Shown here piece after piece: positions 1 through 10,531 of a DNA stretch of 46,963 nucleotides; the stretch's first letter is position 1, and each line of letters opens with the position of its first letter. The notes beneath the pieces were generated by a model, which was given only the letters and a program-made list of their open reading frames with translations, was not told where the DNA came from and did no database searches. The position numbers and the translations under genes are program-made. Location: positions 47,364 to 94,326 of the forward strand of contig QBMB01000003.1 in the NCBI GenBank assembly GCA_003241965.1, given 5' to 3'. The stretch is from Burkholderiales bacterium (GTDB taxonomy: Bacteria > Pseudomonadota > Gammaproteobacteria > Burkholderiales > Burkholderiaceae_C).

Positions 1-1482
1 CCCCGGCACGTCCCATGAGGCGCCCTGGCCGCTGACCAGGGCCGGCGGCTGGTGATCGCCCACGATGATCGTCACCATGGGCCGGGGCGCCCGGTGCAGC
101 AGGTAGTCCGACAGCCACGCGTGTTGGTAGCGCATGCTTTGCAGGTACCGCGGTACGGTCTGCCCCAACGACGCACTGGCTGCATCTGCCGCCGCCGCGT
201 CGGCCGGCGTGTAGGCGTCGGGGCGTGTCAATGACGGCCAGTCGTTCACGAAGGGTGCGATGGGGTGAAACGGGGCGTGGGTGCTGGTGGTGGGAAACAC
301 CACGAAGCGCGGTGCACGCTCGACCGTTCGGTCGAGTTCCTGGGCTTGCAGCAAGGCCAGAGCGGCCTGGTCGGGGATGCGCCAGTAGCCAAAACCCACC
401 CCCTGGTAGCCGATACCCGCGTCGTCGGCCAGGCGATCGAAGCCGTAGAACGAGCCTTCTGGCCAGGGCCGCTTGATGCCCGGCATCCAGCCCACCGTGC
501 GGTAGCCGTGGCGCGCGAAATGGCCCACCAGCGTGGGCCGCTGGCTGGTCATCAGCAGGTCGTTGGCGGCGGGGTCGGAGGTGTCCACACCGCTGAGCAG
601 CGCAGCGTGCGACAGCCAGGACGAGCCGCCGAACGTGGGCGCCGTCACGCGTGCCGAGACGACAAAGCGGCCACTGCCCCGGATGGCCTGGGCCAGCTCC
701 GCGCGTGGTGCGGCCAGCGCCTGAGCCTGCTGCGCGTTGTCGAAGGTGATGGCGCCGTAGGACTCGGCGAACACCAGCAGCACGTCGGCCGGGCCACGAT
801 CGCTGACGAGGCCGGAGAGGTCCCCATCAAAAGCCGGGCTCGGCCCCAGCGTGGCGCCGGCCTGGCCGGGCAGCCACACACGGGCCAGCAGCTGGCCCTG
901 GTGCACCAACGGCGGGGTGATGGGCAACGAGAAGAACCAGCGCGTGTCGCGATGGTCCGGCACGTAGGCGGCAAAGCTCAAGGTCAGTGCGCACGCAATC
1001 GCCAGCAGCCAAGGCCGGGGCCGCTGCCATGCCAGGCAGCCGGCGAGCACACCCAAGGACCCGCGCACCACCAGCGCCAGCAACAGCAGGCCCACCGCCA
1101 GCGCGAAGATCGCTGCTGCCACTTGCCAGCCCGCCATCGACTGGGCAGCGACCTGGATCAATTCGCCCGCGTGGCGCCCGTCCCAGTACACATTGACCGG
1201 GCGCCCCATCACCGCGGGTGCGGTGACGTTGGCGTACCGCACCATCACCAGGCCGACGAAGGCAGCGGTCCAGACCCAGGCAGCGCGGCTTGAGAGCCCG
1301 CCCCTCCACACCACCCAACCCATCAACGCCACCAGGGCCAGGCACAGCTCGAACGACAGCCGGGGCATGTAAGCCACCCCAAGACCGGGCCAGCGGTTCT
1401 CGAAGGTGAGCAGGGTGTTGAGCAGCCCGAAGGCCAGCGCACCACGCAGCAGCCAGCCCGGCGCTGCCTCGGCCGACCTCAC
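1..1482 (-). CDS. Membrane sulfatase/phosphoethanolamine-transferase-like protein, C-terminus cut by window edge
   Basis: The frame is open from a GTG at 1482 to the window edge, 494 codons, so the C-terminus is missing. The first ~200 residues hold several hydrophobic segments. The rest is an alkaline phosphatase/sulfatase-superfamily domain: metal-ligand Glu240 in FAESYGA, a nucleophile region PTFGGSSWLSHA, and a late GDHQPP metal motif near the edge. The layout resembles LtaS/EptA-type inner-membrane enzymes that move phospho-headgroups on the periplasmic side, but the substrate is unknown. The GTG overlaps the stop of the YceI gene (GTGA), which implies translational coupling. The neighbouring CDP-alcohol phosphatidyltransferase fits headgroup chemistry. 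Family assignment is firm; function is not. Confidence 0.8.
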   Translation of the reverse strand, partial: MRSAEAAPGWLLRGALAFGLLNTLLTFENRWPGLGVAYMPRLSFELCLALVALMGWVVWRGGLSSRAAWVWTAAFVGLVMVRYANVTAPAVMGRPVNVYWDGRHAGELIQVAAQSMAGWQVAAAIFALAVGLLLLALVVRGSLGVLAGCLAWQRPRPWLLAIACALTLSFAAYVPDHRDTRWFFSLPITPPLVHQGQLLARVWLPGQAGATLGPSPAFDGDLSGLVSDRGPADVLLVFAESYGAITFDNAQQAQALAAPRAELAQAIRGSGRFVVSARVTAPTFGGSSWLSHAALLSGVDTSDPAANDLLMTSQRPTLVGHFARHGYRTVGWMPGIKRPWPEGSFYGFDRLADDAGIGYQGVGFGYWRIPDQAALALLQAQELDRTVERAPRFVVFPTTSTHAPFHPIAPFVNDWPSLTRPDAYTPADAAAADAASASLGQTVPRYLQSMRYQHAWLSDYLLHRAPRPMVTIIVGDHQPPALVSGQGASWDVPG

Positions 1483-2096
1483 TTGCGCACGGCCTCGAAT
1501 TCAATGATGAGCGGTATCTCGTCGCCGACCCAGCCGTTGGCCACGGCGTAGGTCATGCCGTGGGCACTGCGCTTGAAGCTGCCGCGTGCGGACACACCCA
1601 TCACATAGGGCTTGCCGAGCGGGCCACCCAGCGGCGACTCGGCGCTCTTGTTCCAGGTGGCCTGCAGCGTGAGCGGCTGCGTCTTGCCCAGCAGTTCGAG
1701 CTGGCCGCTGATGTCAAAGGTCTTGTCGCCGGTGCGCTTGGCGGTGGTTGCGGTGAAGACCATCTTGGGAAACTCGCCGCTGTTGAGGAAGTCCGGGCCC
1801 TTGAGATGGTTGTCGCGCTTGGCCTGGTTGCTGAACACGCTGGCGGTTTCCACCTCGATGCGCAGCTCGGAGAGTGTGGCCGTGGCTTCGTCGAAGCGGT
1901 AACTTCCGCGCGCCGAGCGGAACAAGCCCAGCACCTTCGCGTAGCCGATGTGGTCGACCAGGAAGGCCACCGTGGTGTGCTCGGGGTCGAGCTCGTAGCG
2001 CGCGGCCTGGGCCTGGGCCGGAGCGCTCATGAGCAGCTGGGCGCTGCCGGCCAGGGCCGCCCAGAGGACGGCTGTGGTGAAGGTTCTTGCACGCAT
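1479..2096 (-). CDS. YceI family periplasmic protein
   Basis: This 205-residue protein has a Sec signal peptide: basic MRAR start, hydrophobic stretch, then SAPAQAQA before the mature part. The mature region carries the YceI pattern: YELDPEHTTVAFLVDH near its start, RGSYRFDEATATLSEL, FSNQAKRDNHLKGPDF and a closing PLIIEFEAVRK. YceI proteins are lipocalin-like beta barrels that bind isoprenoid or other amphipathic ligands. The gene lies 3 bp downstream of the CDP-alcohol phosphatidyltransferase and overlaps the sulfatase gene by 4 nt, so the three probably form one operon. Its ligand here is unknown; a role in carrying a lipid product is inference. Confidence 0.85.
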   Translation of the reverse strand: MRARTFTTAVLWAALAGSAQLLMSAPAQAQAARYELDPEHTTVAFLVDHIGYAKVLGLFRSARGSYRFDEATATLSELRIEVETASVFSNQAKRDNHLKGPDFLNSGEFPKMVFTATTAKRTGDKTFDISGQLELLGKTQPLTLQATWNKSAESPLGGPLGKPYVMGVSARGSFKRSAHGMTYAVANGWVGDEIPLIIEFEAVRK

Positions 2097-2099
2097 GGT

Positions 2100-2909
2100 T
2101 CAGTTCTCCGGTGGGGTGGGGCGCTGCTGCGCCAGGGTTCGCACGTCGATGGCGAAAGACAGGGTCAACAAAGCCAGGCTGATCGCGGCCAGCGTGCTGG
2201 CCAGCAGCGGCGCCACGGTGGGGCCCAGGCAGACGATCAAGGTTGTGATCTGGATCACGCACACGGTCTGACGGCGTTTGCTCGGCTGCAGCGGCCCGTT
2301 CAACCAGGGCCAGGCGAAAGCCGCCGCCACAAAGGCATAACGCATGAGTCCGCTGGCCAGAATCCAGACGCCGGCCTGGCCAGCCTGCACCACCAGCGCG
2401 CACAGCACCAAGGTGAAAGCCGCGTCGGTTTCCATGTCGAAGCGCGCACCGAACGCGCTGGCCAGTCCGCTGCGCCGGGCCAGCCAACCATCCACCGCAT
2501 CGAGCAGGGCCGTGAGCGTGGCTGCGATCACCAGCCACCAGGCGGCCGCCGGCATGTCGTCCAGCGGTGCGCGGGGCAGGGCTTCACCGATCAAAGCGGC
2601 CATCAGCGCCACGGCGCCCAGGCGCACCAGCGTCACCCGGTTGGCCGGACCAAAGCGTGCATGCGGATGTGCGCCAAGACCGCGCCACACCATCCAGGCG
2701 CCAGCGGCGTACACCAGCAGGGCCTTGAGGGCGAAGTCCAGACCCAGATCGGCCACCCAGCCCAGCCAGAACCCGAAGAGCAGCACCAGCGCAGCCACCG
2801 CCACCAGATCGCGCGCAGCGTCACGCGCCAGACCACGGCGGTCGGTGATGTCCTGCCGAAGCGGGGGCGTTAAGGGTGAACAGGCTGCGGTCTTCATGGT
2901 CTGCAACAT
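2100..2909 (-). CDS. CDP-alcohol phosphatidyltransferase family membrane protein
   Basis: A 269-residue polytopic membrane protein. It carries the complete CDP-alcohol phosphotransferase signature: Asp137, Asp140, Gly141, Ala144-Arg145, Gly154, Asp158 and Asp162 (DAVDGWLARR then GARFDMETD). Such enzymes displace CMP from a CDP-alcohol with a hydroxyl acceptor at the cytoplasmic membrane face. It has about 50 extra N-terminal residues with one or two added membrane segments. The ATG at 2909 is 79 bp from the divergent dehydrogenase gene, so both operons may share a control region. It is not obviously PgsA or PssA; the acceptor is unknown. Confidence 0.85.
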   Translation of the reverse strand: MLQTMKTAACSPLTPPLRQDITDRRGLARDAARDLVAVAALVLLFGFWLGWVADLGLDFALKALLVYAAGAWMVWRGLGAHPHARFGPANRVTLVRLGAVALMAALIGEALPRAPLDDMPAAAWWLVIAATLTALLDAVDGWLARRSGLASAFGARFDMETDAAFTLVLCALVVQAGQAGVWILASGLMRYAFVAAAFAWPWLNGPLQPSKRRQTVCVIQITTLIVCLGPTVAPLLASTLAAISLALLTLSFAIDVRTLAQQRPTPPEN

Positions 2910-2988
2910 AAGATGGTCATGGAAGGCGGCACTTCGCGGTGATCATGGCACGCACCTTTGCTCCGACCCGTCATATCCCTCTTCGTTC

Positions 2989-3990
2989 ATGACATCCACT
3001 CCAAATTCCACGACCACCGTTGCCCAGGCCTGCTGGACCGTGGCACCCGGCCGGGCCGAGATCCGCGACGAGTTGCTGCCTCCACTGGCGAGCAACGAAG
3101 CGCGGGTGCGGACCCTGCACACCGGCGTGAGCCGGGGCACCGAAGGCCTGGTGTTTCGCGGCGAGGTGCCGGCCAGCGAGGCGCAGCGCATGCGTGCCCC
3201 TTTTCAGGTGGGCGAGTTTCCCGCACCGGTCAAGTACGGCTACGTGAACGTGGGCGTGGTCGAGGCTGGCCCTGCCGATCTGCTCGGCCGCACCGTGTTC
3301 TGCCTGTACCCGCACCAGACCGTGTACCAGGTGCCGGCTCAGGCCGTGATTCCCCTGCCGGACGGCGTGCCGCCCGCGCGCGCGGTGCTGGCCGCCAACC
3401 TGGAAACCGCGATCAACGCGCTGTGGGACGCCGCACCGCGCCTGGGCGACCGCATCGCCGTGGTGGGCGGTGGCACGCTGGGTCTGCTGGTGGCGTGGCT
3501 CGCGGCGCGTCTGCCGGGCTGCGAGGTGCAGGTGATCGACACCGAAGCCAGCCGCGCCGCCATCGCAGGCATGTTGGGCGCCGGGTTTTCCCTGCCCAGG
3601 GATGCACGCGCAGATGCCGACCTGGTGGTGCACACCAGCGGGCAGGGCGCGGGCCTGGCCACCGCGCTGCGGCTGGCGGCGTTTGAGGCCACCGTGCTCG
3701 AACTCAGCTGGTACGGCAACCGAGCGGTGAGCGTGCCGCTGGGCGAAGCCTTTCACTCCCAGCGCCTCACGCTGAAAAGCTCCCAGGTGGGCCAGGTGGC
3801 CACCGGGCAGCGCGGCCGCTGGAGCCACCGCCGCCGGCTCGAACTCGCGCTCTCCCTGCTCACCGACCCGGTGCTGGACCGCCTCATCACGCACAGCGCG
3901 CCTTTTCAAGAATTGCCCCAGGTTCTGAAGCACCTGGCCGGACCTTCCGCGACCGACACGCTGTGCCACCGCATCGACTACCCCGTCTGA
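2989..3990 (+). CDS. MDR (zinc-type) alcohol dehydrogenase-like oxidoreductase without the catalytic zinc cysteine
   Basis: A 333-residue medium-chain dehydrogenase. The N-terminal domain has the TGVSRGTE motif (45-52), the version found in BchC-like dehydrogenases, where the position of the usual catalytic-zinc Cys is not Cys. The Rossmann fold starts at VVGGGTLGLLV with the glycine motif at 160-165, followed by an acidic residue (VIDTE) that favours NAD. I chose the ATG at 2989; the frame stays open far upstream, but that part overlaps the divergent gene. No strong Shine-Dalgarno is visible. It is the first gene of the run dehydrogenase, PTPS-like, glycosyltransferase, methyltransferase, so its substrate is probably an intermediate of that pathway. 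Confidence 0.8.
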   Translation: MTSTPNSTTTVAQACWTVAPGRAEIRDELLPPLASNEARVRTLHTGVSRGTEGLVFRGEVPASEAQRMRAPFQVGEFPAPVKYGYVNVGVVEAGPADLLGRTVFCLYPHQTVYQVPAQAVIPLPDGVPPARAVLAANLETAINALWDAAPRLGDRIAVVGGGTLGLLVAWLAARLPGCEVQVIDTEASRAAIAGMLGAGFSLPRDARADADLVVHTSGQGAGLATALRLAAFEATVLELSWYGNRAVSVPLGEAFHSQRLTLKSSQVGQVATGQRGRWSHRRRLELALSLLTDPVLDRLITHSAPFQELPQVLKHLAGPSATDTLCHRIDYPV

Positions 3991-4008
3991 AGAAAAGAGA
4001 ACTCCACC

Positions 4009-4443
4009 ATGTACGCCGTCAACGTCAGAGACCATTTCATGATCGCCCACAGCTTCCAGGGCGAGGTGTTCGGACCCGCCCAGCGCATGCACGGCGCCAC
4101 CTACGTGGTGGACCTTGAATTGCGCCGCGAGGCGCTGGACGCCGACGGGATCGTGGTCGACATCGGTCTGGCCACCCAGGTGCTGCGCGAGGAGCTGGCC
4201 GCGCTGAACTTTCGCAATCTCGACGACGTGCCCGAGTTCAAGGGCCGCAACACCACCACCGAATTCCTCTCGCGCCTGATCTTCGACCGTGTGGCCGCGC
4301 GCATCGCGGCCGGTGACCTCGGTGCCCACGCCTTGCCGTCAGCGACATCCACCGGTGTCCAGCAAATGCGCGTGACACTCAACGAATCGCACGTGGCCTG
4401 GGCCTCGTACGAAGGCGCTCTGCCCGTGCGCGCTTCCGCGTGA
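4009..4443 (+). CDS. PTPS/QueD-fold protein lacking the known catalytic residues
   Basis: A 144-residue T-fold protein of the 6-pyruvoyl-tetrahydropterin synthase / 6-carboxytetrahydropterin synthase family. Family marks are FMIAHSF (zinc His14), MHGATY (27-32), GIVVDIG (47-53), [12 protein letters not shown] (66-77), NTTTE (81-85) and Glu126 in [11 protein letters not shown], the pterin-anchoring Glu position. Departures are striking. The HGH zinc pair is HGA (His28, Ala30). The catalytic Asp-His of LDHxNL is Asn67-Phe68. The whole protein has no cysteine, so the catalytic Cys is absent. It therefore probably does not do QueD or PTPS chemistry; it may bind a pterin-like compound or catalyse something else. 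Its stop overlaps the next start (GTGA). Confidence 0.85.
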
Positions 4444-5483
4444 GCGCCTGCTGCTTCCTGATTCCGGGCGACTGGAACACCCCCACCGGGGGTTACACCT
4501 TCGACCGGCGAATGGTGCTGGCGCTGCGCGAGGTCGGTTGGGCGGTCGAGGTGTGTCGTCTCGACGGCGCCTGGCCGCAACCCGACGCCGCCGAGCTCGC
4601 TGGTGCAGCGGCCCGGATCGCTGCGCTGGCCGACGGCACGCTGGTGGTGGCCGACGGCCTGGCCTTCGGCACCCTGGCCGAGGTGGTGGCGCCGCACGCT
4701 GCGCGCCTGCGCTGGGTGGCGCTTGTGCACCACCCTCTGCACCTGGAGAGCGGACTGTCGGACGCCGCACGACGGCAACTGCTGGCCAACGAAACACATG
4801 CCCTGCTACATGCGCGCCACCTGGTCGTGCCCAGCCCGGCCACCGCCATCGACGTGGCAGCGATGGGCGTTTCGCCGGCGCACATCACCGTGGTGGAGCC
4901 CGGCACCGACCCGGTGCCGATGGCGGTCAGACCCCCGCGCGAGGGCCCGTTGCGCCTGCTCTGCGTGGCCACGCTCACGCCGCGCAAGGGCCACAGCCTG
5001 TTGCTGCAGGCCCTGGCTGGGCTGATGCATCTGGACTGGGAGCTGCACAACGTGGGCAGCGCCATGCGCGACCCAGCCACCGCCGAACACCTGCGCCTGC
5101 TGGCCGCGCCGCTGGGCGCGCGCGTGTTCTGGCACGGCGAGGTGAACGAGCAGGCGCTGCACGCCCACTACGCAGACGCCGATGTGTTCGTGCTGGCCTC
5201 GCTGCACGAAGGCTTCGGCATGGTGATCACCGAGGCCCTGGCGCACGGACTGCCGGTGGTGGCCAGCGATGCCGGTGCCCTGGCGCAGACACTGCCGGGC
5301 GGCGCCGGCCTGCAAGTGCCCGCAGGCGAGGTCGCGCCTTTGCAGGTGGCTCTGGCGCACATCCTGTCCGACGCCGGGTTGCGCGAGCGCCTGGGCGCAG
5401 GGGCCCGTGCGGCGGCCGAACAGTTGCCGACCTGGCCCCAGCAGGCTTTGCTCCTGGCCCGTGCGCTGGAGCGGGTCGCATGA
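4440..5483 (+). CDS. GT4 family glycosyltransferase
   Basis: A 347-residue GT-B retaining glycosyltransferase. The N-terminal acceptor domain begins with [10 protein letters not shown], the Gly-rich loop of family 4. The C-terminal donor domain has the ATLTPRKGH segment and the E-x7-E motif [10 protein letters not shown] (Glu257 and Glu265) that binds the nucleotide sugar. It starts with GTG at 4440, overlapping the PTPS-like stop by 4 nt, and ends overlapping the methyltransferase ATG by 4 nt. This strict coupling implies one pathway. It is predicted cytoplasmic. The sugar and acceptor cannot be told; a pterin-like or pyrimidine acceptor is inference from context. Confidence 0.88.
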
Positions 5484-6376
5484 GCGCGGCGATCTTCAGC
5501 GCCGACTGGCTGCAGCAGCGCGAGCCGTTCGACGCCGCTGCGCGCGACCATGCGGCCGGTGGCCTGCAGCTGCAGCGCCGGCTCGCCGAGCTGCGACCAC
5601 CCAACGCCAGACCGTGGCGCGTGATCGACCTGGCCTGCGGCACCGGCGCCAACCTGCGCTGGCTCGCGCCCCGGCTGGGTGGTGCACAACAGTGGCTGGT
5701 GGTGGACCACGACGCCGCATTGCTGCGGTGCTGGCCTGAGCGCCTGGCCGATGCAGGCGGTGTGCCAGCCGGCCCCGACACGGCGCTGGACGTGCCCATT
5801 TCCTTCACCGGCACGGGGTTCGAGGCGACCGTCGTGCGCCAGCAACTTGACCTGATGGCGGGGCTGGAAACGCTGCCCTGGCACGCGGCCGACCTCGTCA
5901 CCGCTTCGGCGCTGCTCGACCTGGTGGGCACCGCCTGGCTGCACCGCCTGGTGGCGGCCAGCGCGGCGTCGGGTGTTGCCCTGCTCATGAGCCTCACAGT
6001 CGACGGCCGCCCCATCTGGACGCCCGAAGACCCGATGGACGCTACGGTGGGCGCTCTGTTTGGCGAGCACCAGCGCGGCGACAAGGGACTGGGTCCAGCC
6101 CTCGGCCCGGGTGCTGTGGCGGTATTGCAAAGCGCGCTCGTGGCTGCGGGTTACCGCGTGTTCAGTGCAACCAGCGACTGGTGGCTCGACGGCCGCGAGA
6201 GCCCTCAGGCGAGGGCGCTGCAGTGCTCCCTGATCGACGGCATCGGGGGCGCGGCCGGTGAACAGTCCCGCTCAAACGCGGCCCGGGTGCGGGCGTGGCA
6301 GCAGAGGCGTCTTTCGATGGCGCACGAGACTCAACTGCGGGTGGGCCACCTGGACCTGCTGGCCCTGCCTCCCTAG
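5480..6376 (+). CDS. Class I SAM-dependent methyltransferase
   Basis: A 298-residue protein. Motif I is VIDLACGTGANLRW (48-61), followed by WLVVDHDAALL, whose acidic residue normally binds the SAM ribose. LVTASALLDLVG matches the later strand-helix that follows the SAM pocket. The ATG at 5480 lies inside the ATGA overlap with the glycosyltransferase stop. It is the last plus-strand gene of the operon. Its stop TAG overlaps the stop of the convergent RibD-like gene on the shared palindrome CCTAGG. The substrate is unknown; O- or N-methylation of a pathway intermediate is inferred. Confidence 0.85.
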   Translation: MSAAIFSADWLQQREPFDAAARDHAAGGLQLQRRLAELRPPNARPWRVIDLACGTGANLRWLAPRLGGAQQWLVVDHDAALLRCWPERLADAGGVPAGPDTALDVPISFTGTGFEATVVRQQLDLMAGLETLPWHAADLVTASALLDLVGTAWLHRLVAASAASGVALLMSLTVDGRPIWTPEDPMDATVGALFGEHQRGDKGLGPALGPGAVAVLQSALVAAGYRVFSATSDWWLDGRESPQARALQCSLIDGIGGAAGEQSRSNAARVRAWQQRRLSMAHETQLRVGHLDLLALPP

Positions 6377-7323
6377 GTCTGGGACGGGCGCAGGTCCAGA
6401 TCCCAGAGCATGTCCAGCCCCAGCGCCAGCGTTCGTGCTGTGGGGCGCGGGCAATCGGCCATCACCGCGTGGGCGGGAGCCTGCAAGCCTCGGCGCCCGT
6501 TGCCGATGAGGACGGGCGCGACCACCAGGTGCAGGCGGTCCAGCGCACCGGCGGTGAAAAAGCGCGAGACGGTGATGCCACCGCCCTCGACGAACAGGGG
6601 TTGCAAGCCGCGCCTGGCCAAGGCGGCCACCACCGGCTGCGGGTGGTAGCCCGCGGTGGCGTCCGTGGCCAGCAGATCGTCGACCGCCAGCACCTCGGCG
6701 GGATGTGGCGCACCCACCGTTGCATGGGCCGGCGCCTGATGCAGACGGGCCCGGGCCTGCGCCGCGTGGCGGCCGTCACACACCCACAGTGTGGGCGCCT
6801 GCCCGTCGCGAAATACGCGCGATAGGCCGTCCAGACGCGCGGCCGGGTCGATCACCACACGCACGGGCTGCGGCCCCGGCACACGCCGGGTGGTGAGTTG
6901 CGGGTTGTCGGTGGCCACCGTGCCCGCACCGACCAGCACCGCATCACACAGCGCGCGCAATCGGTGCAAGTGCAGCAGGCAGTGGGCGCCGTTGACGTAG
7001 TAGGAGTCGCCGGTGGCGGTGGCCACAAAACCGTCCAGGCTCTGGCCGAGCTGGGCCACCACCCATGGCTTGTCGCCGCGTGCCCGGCCCTGGCGCGCCC
7101 GCGCATCAAGCAGGGGTTTGTACAGGTCGAACAGGGCCGAGGTTCGTGCGCTGACCGCGCCATCCACGCTCCAGCCGCCGTCTGGCCTGTGGCTCAGTTG
7201 CGGTGTGTAACTGCCGTCACGCGCGCGCAGCATCTGAAGCCAGAACCCTGGCCAGTCGAGCGGGACATCCGAAACAGGGTCGCAGGCCGGGGCAGGAGGG
7301 GTAAGCAACTCGGTCGAGGGCAT
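6373..7323 (-). CDS. RibD C-terminal-type reductase with N-terminal extension
   Basis: A 316-residue protein. From about residue 86 it is a RibD reductase / DHFR-like domain: KPWVVAQLGQSLDGFVA, LVGAGTVATDNPQLTTR (130-146), VRVVIDP, and PLFVEGGG near 250 for NADPH binding. RibD reductases reduce the ribosyl group of a pyrimidine from riboflavin synthesis. The usual N-terminal zinc deaminase domain is absent; instead about 85 residues (for example DWPGFWLQML) match nothing I know. The ATG at 7323 is the first reasonable start. It converges on the methyltransferase with a 4-nt stop overlap. A dedicated reductase for the pathway next door is more likely than a second riboflavin enzyme. Confidence 0.82.
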   Translation of the reverse strand: MPSTELLTPPAPACDPVSDVPLDWPGFWLQMLRARDGSYTPQLSHRPDGGWSVDGAVSARTSALFDLYKPLLDARARQGRARGDKPWVVAQLGQSLDGFVATATGDSYYVNGAHCLLHLHRLRALCDAVLVGAGTVATDNPQLTTRRVPGPQPVRVVIDPAARLDGLSRVFRDGQAPTLWVCDGRHAAQARARLHQAPAHATVGAPHPAEVLAVDDLLATDATAGYHPQPVVAALARRGLQPLFVEGGGITVSRFFTAGALDRLHLVVAPVLIGNGRRGLQAPAHAVMADCPRPTARTLALGLDMLWDLDLRPSQT

Positions 7324-7414: not shown

Positions 7415-7981
7415 CTACTTCCACTGCGGCGCGTAGTACGGGTCCTCGCCCACGTTCCCGCCCGAGCCCTCTGTGCCACCCGCTGACAACCCGGCCAGGC
7501 ACAGCGCGAGTCCGATGCCGGTCAGCAGCAAAGGCAACAGCGAGACCGGCGAGACCGCCGCAGCGCGCCAGGCCCACAACACCGCCACACCACAGGCTGT
7601 GGCCAGCATCATGGCCAACTGGGCCAGCAGCAGCGAGCCACCCAGAGCACCCCAGGCGGCCAACCCGAGCGCGAGGAGTGTCAGCACTACAGCAGCGATC
7701 AAGCCGTTGCGCCGCGCCATGGCCCGTGTGCCCGGTGCCTTGAGCGCGATGGCCAGTGCGGCCAGCAGCGTGCTGCACAGGGCCACCCAGGGCAGCACCT
7801 GCGCTCGCGACGCCGCCGGCCAATCGAACCCGGGCCAAACGGCCAGGGCCAGCACCAGCCCGAGCGCCGCCCCCAGCACCGCCCAACGCAGGCCCAACTG
7901 GCGCAACAGCAGGCTGATGGCCATGGCCAGCACAAAAGGCAGCACCAGGCTCTGGAAGGCGGGATGGTGGAGGAATGACAT
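7415..7981 (-). CDS. Hypothetical polytopic membrane protein
   Basis: A 188-residue protein with about six hydrophobic segments (for example VLPFVLAMAISLLL, AVLGAALGLVLALAVW, GLIAAVVLTLLALGLAAW). I do not recognise the family. The ATG at 7981 begins MSFLHHPAFQS; the frame stays open upstream but that part is arginine/serine-rich shadow sequence over the divergent PaiB-like gene. The C-terminus is short and polar (DPYYAPQWK). It lies 91 bp upstream of the RibD-like start on the same strand, so cotranscription is possible, but nothing ties it to that pathway. Confidence 0.6.
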   Translation of the reverse strand: MSFLHHPAFQSLVLPFVLAMAISLLLRQLGLRWAVLGAALGLVLALAVWPGFDWPAASRAQVLPWVALCSTLLAALAIALKAPGTRAMARRNGLIAAVVLTLLALGLAAWGALGGSLLLAQLAMMLATACGVAVLWAWRAAAVSPVSLLPLLLTGIGLALCLAGLSAGGTEGSGGNVGEDPYYAPQWK

Positions 7982-8102
7982 GGCGTGTGACGTGTAGCGT
8001 GTGTTCCCATCATCCCACCGGCACTCGGTTTTGCGGTGCGGGAATACACTGCGGCTCCCGCGCCCGAACCCTTGCCCGAAACCCCGCCCGAAAGAGGCTG
8101 CC

Positions 8103-8729
8103 ATGTACCTGCCGCCGCAGTTTGCCGCCCAAGACCCCGCCATTGCCCGCGAACTCATGCGCGCGCACCCCTTTGCCAGCCTCATTTCCACCGACGACGA
8201 GGGTCTGCCTTTCGTCACGCACCTGCCGTTGCACTTGCTGGAAGAAGAGGCCGGCCTCGTGTTGCTGGGCCATGTGGCGCGGCCCAACCCACATGCCAAA
8301 TTCCTGCGCGAACGCCCGAAGGCCGTGGTCACGTTCATGGGGCCCCACGCCTACATGACGCCGCGTGTTTACCCCGATCTGGCGCGCGTGCCCACCTGGA
8401 ACTACCTCGCCGTGCACTGCACCGTGCAGGCCCGCCCGGTGGACAGCTTTGACGACAAGGACCGCCTGCTCAAGCACCTGATCCACGACCACGACCCGGC
8501 CTATGCCGATCAATGGCGTGGTCTGGGCGAGGACTACCAGCACAAGATGATGCAGGGCATCGTGGCCTTCGAGCTGCAGGTGACCGAGTTGCAGTGCAAG
8601 GTCAAGATCAACCAGCACCGCCCCGAAGCGCACGCGGCCATGCTGAGTGCCTACGCACAGGGCAACGGCGATGAGCAGGCCCTGGCCGGCTGGATGCGCC
8701 GCCTGGGGCTGACAGGACAGGGCGCGTGA
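8103..8729 (+). CDS. FMN-binding PaiB family protein
   Basis: A 208-residue split-barrel flavin-binding protein of the PaiB family, named from the Bacillus protein linked to protease production. Diagnostic stretches are MYLPPQFAAQDP at the start, HPFASLISTDDEGLPFVTHLPL, GHVARPNPH, ARVPTWNYLAVHC and the C-terminal KINQHRPEA. The ATG at 8103 has an upstream AAAGAGG. The stop overlaps the GTG of the SGNH hydrolase gene (GTGA at 8726-8729), suggesting an operon of two. In most proteobacteria these proteins have no proven regulatory role; a flavin-dependent redox function is equally possible. Confidence 0.85.
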   Translation: MYLPPQFAAQDPAIARELMRAHPFASLISTDDEGLPFVTHLPLHLLEEEAGLVLLGHVARPNPHAKFLRERPKAVVTFMGPHAYMTPRVYPDLARVPTWNYLAVHCTVQARPVDSFDDKDRLLKHLIHDHDPAYADQWRGLGEDYQHKMMQGIVAFELQVTELQCKVKINQHRPEAHAAMLSAYAQGNGDEQALAGWMRRLGLTGQGA

Positions 8730-9397
8730 AGCGGCGCGCCTGGCTGCTCGCCGCTGCGGTCTGGCTGTCGGCGCCGGTGCGGGCGCAGACCAGTGCCACG
8801 GCGGAGCAGCGCTGGAAAAAGGAACTCGACGCCTTCACCGCAGCCGACCGCCTGCAGATGCCACCCACCGGCGGCGTGTTGTTTGTGGGCAGCTCGCCGA
8901 TCCGCATGCTGAGCGACCTGGAAACGGCTTCTCCCGACCAGCCGCTGGTGATCCGGCGCGGGTTCGGTGGATCACGAATTTCCGACAGCGCCGACCTGGT
9001 GCAACGCCTGGTGCTGCCGTACCGGCCTCGACTGGTGGTGCTCTATGCGGGTGAAAACGACCTTGCCGAAGGTGCCAATCCGCAGGATGTGCTGGGCCAT
9101 TTCGTGCGTTTCGTGCAGCAGGTGCAGAGCGAGTTGCCTGCCACGCGGGTGGCCTACATGTCGATCAAGCCCAGTCCTTCGCGCCTGGTGAAGATGGCGC
9201 ACATGCGAGAGGCCAACCTGCTGATCCAGACCCACGTGCTGGCCAACGAGAACCTGGATTACATCGACGTGCACACCGCCATGCTGGACAACGACGGCCG
9301 ACCACGACCGGAGTTGTTCGTGCGCGACCAGTTGCACCTGAGCGCCGAGGGCTATGGCCTGTGGCGCCAGATCGTCTCAGCGCATCTGCGGCCCTGA
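8726..9397 (+). CDS. SGNH/GDSL-family hydrolase, predicted periplasmic
   Basis: A 223-residue protein with a signal peptide (KRRAWLLAAAVWLSAPVRAQ, cleavage after the Ala-Gln region). Block I is VGSSPIRML (GDS replaced by GSS, catalytic Ser retained), a Gly-rich RRGFGGSRISD follows, block III is YAGENDL, and block V is DQLHLSAEGY with catalytic Asp and His. These enzymes are serine esterases or acetylhydrolases acting on lipids or carbohydrate esters. The GTG start lies within the PaiB stop. The 3' end overlaps the convergent OpgC-like gene by 21 bp. The substrate is unknown; a cell-envelope acyl ester is plausible. Confidence 0.83.
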   Translation: MKRRAWLLAAAVWLSAPVRAQTSATAEQRWKKELDAFTAADRLQMPPTGGVLFVGSSPIRMLSDLETASPDQPLVIRRGFGGSRISDSADLVQRLVLPYRPRLVVLYAGENDLAEGANPQDVLGHFVRFVQQVQSELPATRVAYMSIKPSPSRLVKMAHMREANLLIQTHVLANENLDYIDVHTAMLDNDGRPRPELFVRDQLHLSAEGYGLWRQIVSAHLRP

Positions 9398-10531
9398 GCG
9401 CCACCACAGGGCAGGGCGCCAGCCGCTGCGCTCGCGCGTTTCCACCACCATGGCCACGGCAAACAGACCGGCCAAGGCGCTGGCCAGCAGCGCCACATCG
9501 GTGCTCCAGGGGCGGATCACTTCCGGTGAGCCGAAGAAGGCGAGGGTGAACAAGGCGATCACGATGTGGGCGCAGAACACCGACAGGGAGTTGCGACCCA
9601 GCAGCTCCAGCGGCAGTGGGCGTGGCAGCGCCCTTTTCAGCCACGGGCCGAACGTCACGAGCAACACGAAGACACTGGCGAAATTGAGTACACGCAAGGG
9701 CCCGAGCGACCATTTGTCCAGCAGCATGCCCACCGCCGGCACACCCGGCATCGGGTCCTGGCCCACCATGTGGCGCCACAACAGCATGCCGGCGGCGTAG
9801 ACCGCGGCGGGCACCAGACACCACACAGGAATGCGAGGCAGCGGTTGCTGGCGCGTACCCAACCACAGGCCCACGACCCACAGCGCCTGCCAGGCAAACC
9901 AGTGAAACGCACCCATGTCTTTGTAGGGAATGGGCACGCCGATCAGGCTTGCGGTCAGCTCGTACAGCGCCAGACCCAGGCCCCACTGCTGGGCCAGCCA
10001 AAGCAGGGCACTCACCGCCAGCACGCCGCCCCATCCTCGTTGCAGGGCGTGGCGCAGCACCCACGGGCTGATCAGCATCAGCACGATGTACAGCGGCAGG
10101 ATGTCCAGCAGGGGCGGGTTGTGCAGCAGCAGCGCGGCGCCCACCACCGCAGCCGTCGGGTCGATGAAAAAGAATTCAAGCAGCCCGGTGGCACCACCTT
10201 GCCGGTTGTGCACGCCCAACCAGGCGATGAGCGTGAAGGCCAGCGACAGCAAACCGAGCTGGCACAGGTAGAGCTTGAGCGCGCGCTCGTGAAAGGCAAC
10301 TTGCATGGCCGCCACACCGTCGCGCCGGGCACGGTGGCCGTAAACGCGGCCAGCCATGAAGGCCGACAGGAACACGAAACCTTCGGCCGCCGAGACGAAG
10401 CCGAACGGCTGACCCGATGGCAACGAGAACATCGTCGGCATGTGGGTCAGCGTCATCAACACGAGCATCAACCCGCGCAGGGCGTCGAGCTCCCAGCGGC
10501 GGTTGGAGGGGTGGATGGGCGTGGGGGACAT
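9377..10531 (-). CDS. OpgC-like membrane acyltransferase
   Basis: A 384-residue multispanning protein with about ten hydrophobic segments. The start RRWELDALRGLMLVLMTLTHMP, then FGFVSAAEGFVFLSAFMAGRVYG, and LGRNSLSVFCAHI near the C-terminus, match the OpgC_C family (acyltransferase-3-like). OpgC proteins put succinyl groups on osmoregulated periplasmic glucans at the inner membrane. The ATG at 10531 faces the divergent tadA fusion gene 83 bp away. The 3' end overlaps the SGNH gene by 21 bp; a transferase next to an esterase hints at opposing acyl chemistry, which is inference. The true acyl group and acceptor are unknown. Confidence 0.8.
   Translation of the reverse strand: MSPTPIHPSNRRWELDALRGLMLVLMTLTHMPTMFSLPSGQPFGFVSAAEGFVFLSAFMAGRVYGHRARRDGVAAMQVAFHERALKLYLCQLGLLSLAFTLIAWLGVHNRQGGATGLLEFFFIDPTAAVVGAALLLHNPPLLDILPLYIVLMLISPWVLRHALQRGWGGVLAVSALLWLAQQWGLGLALYELTASLIGVPIPYKDMGAFHWFAWQALWVVGLWLGTRQQPLPRIPVWCLVPAAVYAAGMLLWRHMVGQDPMPGVPAVGMLLDKWSLGPLRVLNFASVFVLLVTFGPWLKRALPRPLPLELLGRNSLSVFCAHIVIALFTLAFFGSPEVIRPWSTDVALLASALAGLFAVAMVVETRERSGWRPALWWRSGPQMR

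Follow-up and report, generated by a model that had tools for sequence, protein, structure and literature searches.

A conserved gene cluster around SCO6650-like PTPS-fold proteins suggests a pathway from GTP to a glycosylated, possibly lipid-linked product

The gene cluster

The window analysed here is a stretch of 46,963 nt from a Burkholderiales bacterium (assembly GCA_003241965.1, contig QBMB01000003.1, positions 47,364-94,326 of the forward strand), and its left end harbors a cluster of eight genes around a PTPS-fold protein. The cluster consists of two divergent operons and one convergent gene (Table 1). The left operon encodes a CDP-alcohol phosphatidyltransferase (CDPT), a YceI-like protein and a membrane enzyme of the alkaline-phosphatase/sulfatase superfamily (the sulfatase-fold protein in the following); the right operon encodes an MDR-family dehydrogenase, the PTPS-like protein, a GT4 glycosyltransferase and a methyltransferase, and is followed by the gene of a RibD-like reductase. 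We conclude that these genes belong to a real, conserved biosynthetic system, the first steps of which resemble riboflavin-type chemistry. As a whole, we read the cluster as a pathway that would convert GTP into a glycosylated, methylated head group and then join this to a lipid, a reading to which we assign a probability of roughly 0.4.

A preliminary description of this DNA, made from its letters and open reading frames, had named the eight families and suspected a new biosynthetic system; open reading frames and Pfam searches recover all eight where it had placed them, with the matches for MDR, methyltransferase and sulfatase-fold staying below the Pfam cut-offs. The 4-nt stop/start overlaps that it had reported for the core operon are seen at PTPS/GT4 and GT4/methyltransferase, and a further one lies at sulfatase-fold/YceI; the stops of the methyltransferase and RibD-like genes overlap convergently. 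The genome is assembled in 177 contigs and 99.97% complete, and its nearest named relatives by the PTPS-like protein, in the genome-contig scan described below, are mostly Hydrogenophaga. In L003, the window's own region, the sulfatase-fold gene reaches a stretch of 10 unread bases, so that its interruption looks like an assembly gap rather than a truncation.

Table 1. Genes and features of the cluster and its surroundings, with positions in the window unless a locus is given.
Feature	Position	Strand	Evidence
Sulfatase-fold protein (alkaline-phosphatase/sulfatase superfamily membrane enzyme)	1-1482	-	PF00884, 19.8 bits; gene cut by window edge
YceI-like protein, presumably periplasmic	1479-2096	-	PF04264, 127.8 bits, E 5.6e-37
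CDP-alcohol phosphatidyltransferase (CDPT), membrane protein	2100-2909	-	PF01066 (CDP-OH_P_transf), 47.9 bits, E 2.5e-12
Divergent intergenic region CDPT/MDR, 79 bp	2910-2988	.	Gene ends
MDR-family dehydrogenase	2989-3990	+	BchC model, 41.7 bits, far under that model's cut-off
PTPS-fold protein, SCO6650 family by sequence	4009-4443	+	PF01242, 84.4 bits, E 7.6e-24; PDB 3D7J, 212.8 bits
GT4 glycosyltransferase	4440-5483	+	PF00534 (Glycos_transf_1), 97.5 bits, E 8.3e-28
Class I S-adenosylmethionine-dependent methyltransferase	5480-6376	+	PF13649, 24.7 bits, just under cut-off
RibD reductase-domain protein without deaminase	6373-7323	-	PF01872 (RibD_C), 126.7 bits, E 1.3e-36
Unnamed protein with hydrophobic stretches, adjoins RibD-like gene	7415-8338		No Pfam match
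OpgC, periplasmic-glucan modification, possible partner	9377-10531	-	PF10129, 217.8 bits
FkbM-domain methyltransferase, just beyond left window edge	L003:9369-10124		PF05050, 54.9 bits

Distribution and linkage of the gene families

Relatives of the cluster were collected from three sources. A genome-contig scan with the PTPS-like protein returned 278 pattern stretches and 227 relatives, the best 80 of which were used; a plasmid scan returned 23 records, of which 21 were taken (H4 and H14 were left out, their organisms being already represented); and a profile of 21 PTPS-like proteins was run over 299 Pseudomonadota genomes. In this last set, 22 genomes (~7%), the window's included, gave a strong match of at least 178 bits, with the next score at 74.8 bits. 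The remaining 21 strong-match regions were added, which together with L003 makes 123 loci. Families were counted in the 101 loci whose flanks both measure 8 kb or more, the 22 others (including L003) being left out. As this set is weighted to Burkholderiales and possibly holds a few strains twice, the counts below are each followed by that in the 38 loci kept after thinning at 75% PTPS identity.

Counted with family profiles built from loci of the same set, at score thresholds of our own choice, the core is nearly constant: MDR is found in 98 loci (38 after thinning), GT4 in 97 (37), the methyltransferase in 95 (36) and RibD in 87 (30). The families of the left operon are less frequent, with CDPT in 61 (20), sulfatase-fold in 47 (14) and YceI in 37 (8) loci. 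Further partners recur: the GTP cyclohydrolase II RibA in 27 (11), FkbM in 19 (6), LPG_synthase_TM in 18 (10), creatininase in 13 (7) and cytochrome b561 in 13 (6) loci, and the glucan genes MdoH in 12 (8), OpgC in 6 (2) and MdoG in 4 (2). None of the counted families is present in 14 control regions, seven of which surround intermediate PTPS proteins in cluster-free genomes (L120-L126; L125 has less than 1 kb on one side) and seven another PTPS/QueD gene in cluster-bearing genomes (L127, L136-L141). The intermediate proteins themselves (58-74 bits; Pseudomonadota, mostly of one family) were considered as members and rejected, because their catalytic residues are intact and no cluster surrounds them.

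The linkage of the eight genes is not due to chance. Co-occurrence beyond this genome, which the preliminary description had made a test of its proposal, is widespread, with hosts spanning Burkholderiales and other Pseudomonadota, Streptomyces, Microbacterium and haloarchaea; the description had suspected the right kind of system and drawn its extent too narrowly. Within the window's genus, a strong PTPS-like match occurs in 7 of 20 genomes, the window's included, and the cluster is therefore patchy. The same description had allowed that the PTPS-like and RibD-like genes might be the housekeeping copies of QueD and RibD. This is ruled out, since both have copies elsewhere in the genome, QueD next to QueE on contig C22 (L001; its score of 73.4 bits with the QueD model is under that model's cut-off, 89.25) and RibD on contig C106.

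The conservation extends to gene order. MDR, PTPS, GT4 and methyltransferase follow one another in this order and on the same strand in 110 of the 111 loci that hold all four, across Pseudomonadota, Actinomycetota and haloarchaea. The exception is Palleronia, in which a separate upstream gene was counted as the GT4. Of the 100 loci that hold both RibD and the methyltransferase, 97 have them on opposite strands, and in 66 of them the two stops are between 60 nt overlapping and 200 nt apart. Several of the proteins are also fused, namely GT4 with methyltransferase in five loci (L102, L103, L107, L108, L109), CDPT with sulfatase-fold in L035 and L064, and CDPT with YceI in L076 (a single protein with both Pfam domains). 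Through the fusions, the products of the left operon are connected with one another; CDPT and the core are linked by their co-location in three phyla. CDPT lies beside the core genes of Streptomyces, Microbacterium and Haloarcula. For the five core proteins, the distance matrices correlate with r of 0.61-0.89, and 0/500 permutations reach any of the 10 values, to which the shared ancestry of the hosts contributes. The recurrent partners RibA, creatininase, LPG_synthase_TM, FkbM, cytochrome b561 and the glucan genes, together with the fusions, are new here. The unnamed protein next to the RibD-like gene has blastp relatives in 18 of the other loci.

The PTPS-like protein

The match of the PTPS-like protein to Streptomyces coelicolor SCO6650 (PDB 3D7J, labeled uncharacterized in the deposit) covers positions 1-132 of 133, the next best structure scoring 39.2 bits; judged by its sequence, it is a member of the SCO6650 family. 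Across 21 aligned members, the first two zinc histidines (H14, H28) are kept throughout. The HGH zinc motif reads HGA in 19 of them, the window's included, so that the third zinc His is lost; the two haloarchaeal members read HSH and keep three His, but not the Asp-His pair. This pair (LDHR) is intact in none of the 21 (L088 keeps the Asp), and the position of the catalytic Cys, four residues before the first His of HGH, is Ala or Glu in all. The pterin-anchoring Glu near the C-terminus, E126, is invariant. HGH and the DH pair are present in all 14 control PTPS/QueD proteins, and the Cys is missing in four of these, including the window genome's QueD, so its loss alone means little. This QueD has Ser at the usual Cys position, a feature common to three other control proteins. 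The structure paper on SCO6650 is said to describe a protein with no PTPS activity and no zinc or triad, but with pterin-binding residues kept.

These losses bear on the GTP-derived pterin or pyrimidine that the preliminary description had proposed. A pterin made by PTPS/QueD chemistry is not supported; a pyrimidine finds support in the recurrence of RibA and creatininase.

Reductase, GTP cyclohydrolase II and creatininase

The RibD-like protein has the RibD_C domain and conserved reductase residues and lacks the deaminase domain; the convergent RibD reductase claimed earlier thus stands as to position and reductase domain, but is not a full RibD. The best PDB match of the family profile is 2,5-diamino-6-ribosylamino-pyrimidinone 5'-phosphate reductase (146.8 bits).

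RibA genes occur in 30 of the 123 loci, at any flank length. Their zinc motif, C-TGD--G---C-CG, is intact in 29; the RibA of L012 has all three Cys, but another residue in place of one Gly. At the switch position, 28 of the proteins carry Tyr and two carry Met (in L128 the residue was read by eye), and these two belong to the two Streptomyces clusters with RibA, both of which carry a creatininase gene. SCO6655 of S. coelicolor, which we take to be a GTP cyclohydrolase II paralogue and a near neighbour of SCO6650, reportedly has Met at this position and stops at the formyl product. SCO6655 is listed in a table of PMC2853524. The creatininase-family protein BrbF is an assayed deformylase of the formyl intermediate (PMC9478397). 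Together with this precedent, the RibA genes fit a route from GTP through the formyl intermediate and a diaminopyrimidine to its reduced ribityl form.

Riboflavin synthesis in bacteria or archaea begins with steps of the RibA, RibD-reductase and creatininase-family type, and separate riboflavin modules have been proposed in Sinorhizobium (PMC9478397). The cluster could accordingly be an alternative riboflavin or flavin branch, e.g. for secreted or modified flavins. However, the annotations of the 16 plasmid loci for which gene tables exist include neither a lumazine synthase nor a riboflavin synthase, and we know of no role in riboflavin synthesis for the PTPS-like protein, MDR, GT4 or methyltransferase; we consider this branch very unlikely.

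In the window genome, a creatininase was sought beside the cluster and is not there. The cluster-type creatininase (289 bits) lies on contig C153, where its gene shares 4 nt with that of a cyclopropane-synthase-like protein (PF02353, 325.6 bits; L149:8150-10428).

Dehydrogenase, glycosyltransferase and methyltransferase

With zinc-ligand positions judged from known motifs, the MDR protein has no invariant or near-invariant Cys in 20 sequences (the N-terminus of L112 is garbled); H109 and H256 are invariant, and C105 is so in 13 proteobacterial sequences. The zinc site usual for the family may be missing. The GT4 profile finds Tll1590 as its best PDB match and D-inositol-3-phosphate glycosyltransferase as its second, and also matches PimB and PimA, enzymes of phosphatidylinositol. 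For the methyltransferase, the comparison with solved structures gives generic matches only. An ARAGORN call of a tRNA-SeC at 5460-5550, inside the GT4/methyltransferase coding sequence, has no Rfam match and is likely false.

CDPT, sulfatase-fold protein and periplasmic partners

The CDPT motif D--DG--AR--------G---D---D is complete, with D137, D140, G141, A144, R145, G154, D158 and D162 invariant in 16 sequences that include Streptomyces, Microbacterium and Haloarcula, and the protein has six hydrophobic segments.

'Sulfatase' is a loose name for the third protein of the left operon. PF00884 matches 11 of 12 family members at E of at most 0.01, and the score of the window's protein is below the cut-off of 25 bits; the family members have no NCBIfam match, and the search of solved structures gave none at E 0.1. 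The formylglycine motif C/S-x-P-x-R occurs as a string in 9 of 62 proteins, the window's not among them. The presence of a true sulfatase is not supported. E240, T283, H402, D476 and H477 are invariant in 12 sequences, and by analogy with LtaS, OpgB and EptA, we read the protein as a probable active metal-dependent transferase or phosphatase.

Among the further partners, the LPG_synthase_TM protein is annotated as flippase-like in one record; in the window genome, the search for a cluster-type flippase gave only marginal PF03706 matches of 33.5 and 32.6 bits (cut-off 33.4). MdoH is found at 12 of the 101 loci, several of them related, against ~0.4 expected by our own estimate (one gene per 4-5 Mb, 20 kb), and in Neorhizobium mdoH ends 2 nt upstream of the MDR gene. 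MdoG and MdoH are not beside the window's cluster; they lie on contig C134. The lipid or periplasmic step suggested earlier for the left operon gains support from the CDPT fusions and the flippase-like partner, and we treat its lipid end as conjectural.

Discussion

Alongside the observed gene content, conserved order, fusions, motif-intact RibA of the RibA-bearing clusters and lost PTPS residues, we infer the reactions, their order, the lipid link and the product as follows. GTP cyclohydrolase II would open GTP to 2,5-diamino-6-ribosylamino-pyrimidinone phosphate; in Streptomyces, its reaction would probably end with the formyl intermediate, leaving deformylation to the creatininase-family protein. 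The RibD-type reductase would then reduce the ribosyl chain. The PTPS-fold protein may bind the pyrimidine or a pterin-like base via its conserved Glu and catalyze or template a step other than that of PTPS/QueD, while the MDR protein would alter the redox state of the side chain. GT4 would add a sugar and the methyltransferase(s) methyl groups, before CDPT joins an alcohol to a phospholipid and the LPG_synthase_TM protein flips the product. Finally, YceI and the alkaline-phosphatase-fold enzyme may act as carriers of the lipid or as periplasmic transferases of its head group, with periplasmic glucan as a possible acceptor.

In its widest form, this scheme would describe a new class of membrane lipids, with a glycosylated, GTP-derived head group (diaminopyrimidine, pterin or lumazine-like), for which bacteria and haloarchaea would share a single conserved pathway. 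Gram-negatives would export the head group and, via cytochrome b561, YceI and the alkaline-phosphatase-fold transferase, use it as a membrane-bound redox cofactor or transfer it onto periplasmic glucan. We offer this wider proposal tentatively, as less likely than not.

A number of observations weigh against the pathway from GTP to a lipid-linked head group. To our knowledge, no activity has been measured for any of the core proteins. RibA is missing from 74 of the 101 loci and from the window's own cluster, and PF00925 finds just two genes in the window genome, a RibBA and a paralogue beside a DUF1688 gene. The cyclohydrolase domain of the RibBA (L084:844-1974, contig C106) lacks the zinc cysteines, even though NCBIfam names it bifunctional (600.5 bits, cut-off 513). 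PF00925 matches occur in 18 of the 20 genomes of the genus, all 18 scoring 134.9-141.5 bits like this RibBA and two adding a second match at 59 bits; the other RibBAs of the genus probably lack the cysteines as well. The paralogue, which NCBIfam names GTP cyclohydrolase II, was set aside as the pathway's RibA because it adjoins the DUF1688 gene (PF07958, 489 bits), in a setting that is presumably that of the uracil-catabolism gene URC1; it might nevertheless have a role in the pathway. Creatininase is present in 11 of the 28 loci with Tyr-type RibA, which should need no deformylase, and occurs without RibA in L093 and L099. RibD is not found beside the core in 14 of the 101 loci, the three haloarchaeal ones included. 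At the lipid end, 40 of the 101 loci have no CDPT and 54 no sulfatase-fold gene near the core, so that the lipid module may be optional or located elsewhere; of the three haloarchaeal loci, only one has CDPT. Lastly, the three of the 101 loci without MDR are Streptomyces plasmids with the PTPS-like gene alone, which thinning at 75% masks; this is perhaps a separate use of the protein. These plasmids (L096, L129, L130) share cupin, MBL-fold, sigma-70 and BTAD regulator genes, and two add a MEKHLA protein.

The loci without CDPT would be expected if the core made a soluble pterin- or lumazine-type glycoside, with CDPT, YceI and sulfatase-fold being neighbors for other reasons. Cyanobacteria make pterin glycosides, the PTPS-like protein keeps the pterin-binding Glu, and in Rhodobacteraceae SC52 the genes MDR-PTPS-methyltransferase-RibD stand without an annotated GT4 or CDPT in the vicinity. 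Yet CDPT travels with the core in three phyla, its fusions link it to YceI and the sulfatase-fold enzyme, and the PDB relatives of GT4 include enzymes acting on inositol phosphate and phosphatidylinositol. We regard such a soluble product as somewhat unlikely.

The frequent absence of RibA, in turn, and the loss of the PTPS catalytic residues would also suit a recruitment of the PTPS- and RibD-like proteins to unrelated chemistry, in which a polyol lipid or periplasmic glucan is decorated and no part derives from GTP. The MshA/PimB-like character of GT4 and the recurrence of MdoH-like, OpgC and MdoG genes, including the adjacent mdoH in Neorhizobium, point in this direction. Motif-intact GTP cyclohydrolase II is, however, a recurrent neighbor, also on plasmids, and the reductase residues of the RibD-like protein are conserved; we think this explanation unlikely. 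We retain the pathway from GTP to a lipid-linked head group, the start of which is fairly supported, though the window's own cluster is without a cyclohydrolase, and the lipid end of which is putative.

The preliminary description knew of no pathway using this gene set, and the later steps likewise match none known to us. A literature search for the cluster, its product and SCO6650/SCO6655 found no paper on the cluster; most subscription journals lay outside its scope, which makes it weak evidence of novelty. For cluster members, the database names 6-carboxytetrahydropterin synthase, RibD family, zinc-binding alcohol dehydrogenase and sulfatase are misleading. The gene set places 3D7J, a solved structure, in a pathway that can be tested and whose starting compound, order and cellular location are predicted; this pathway, if true, would connect GTP-derived cofactors with lipid and periplasmic chemistry.

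Comparison with known systems

The system shares parts with several known ones. The osmoregulated periplasmic glucan genes mdoG, mdoH and opgC are recurrent neighbors, and the pairing of an alkaline-phosphatase-fold membrane enzyme with a phospholipid synthase resembles the chemistry of OpgB. Unlike the glucan system and its phosphoglycerol transferases, the sulfatase-fold protein has neither an NCBIfam match nor a solved relative, and the Streptomyces, Microbacterium and haloarchaeal loci of our set hold no glucan genes. With QueD and PTPS, the PTPS-like protein has the fold family PF01242 and the C-terminal Glu in common, but it has lost the third zinc His (in the bacterial members), the Asp-His pair and the Cys. 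The archaeal and fungal riboflavin route (ArfB/BrbF, diaminopyrimidine reductase) shares with the cluster a GTP cyclohydrolase, a creatininase-family protein and a deaminase-less reductase; it continues with lumazine and riboflavin synthases, whereas the cluster has MDR, PTPS-like, GT4, methyltransferase and lipid genes. A further counterpart is the S. coelicolor pair. SCO6650 corresponds to the window's PTPS-like protein end to end, and the two Streptomyces clusters share with SCO6655 the Met that it reportedly carries, and hold a creatininase gene; the proteobacterial clusters, by contrast, have Tyr-type RibA and add sulfatase-fold, YceI and glucan genes.

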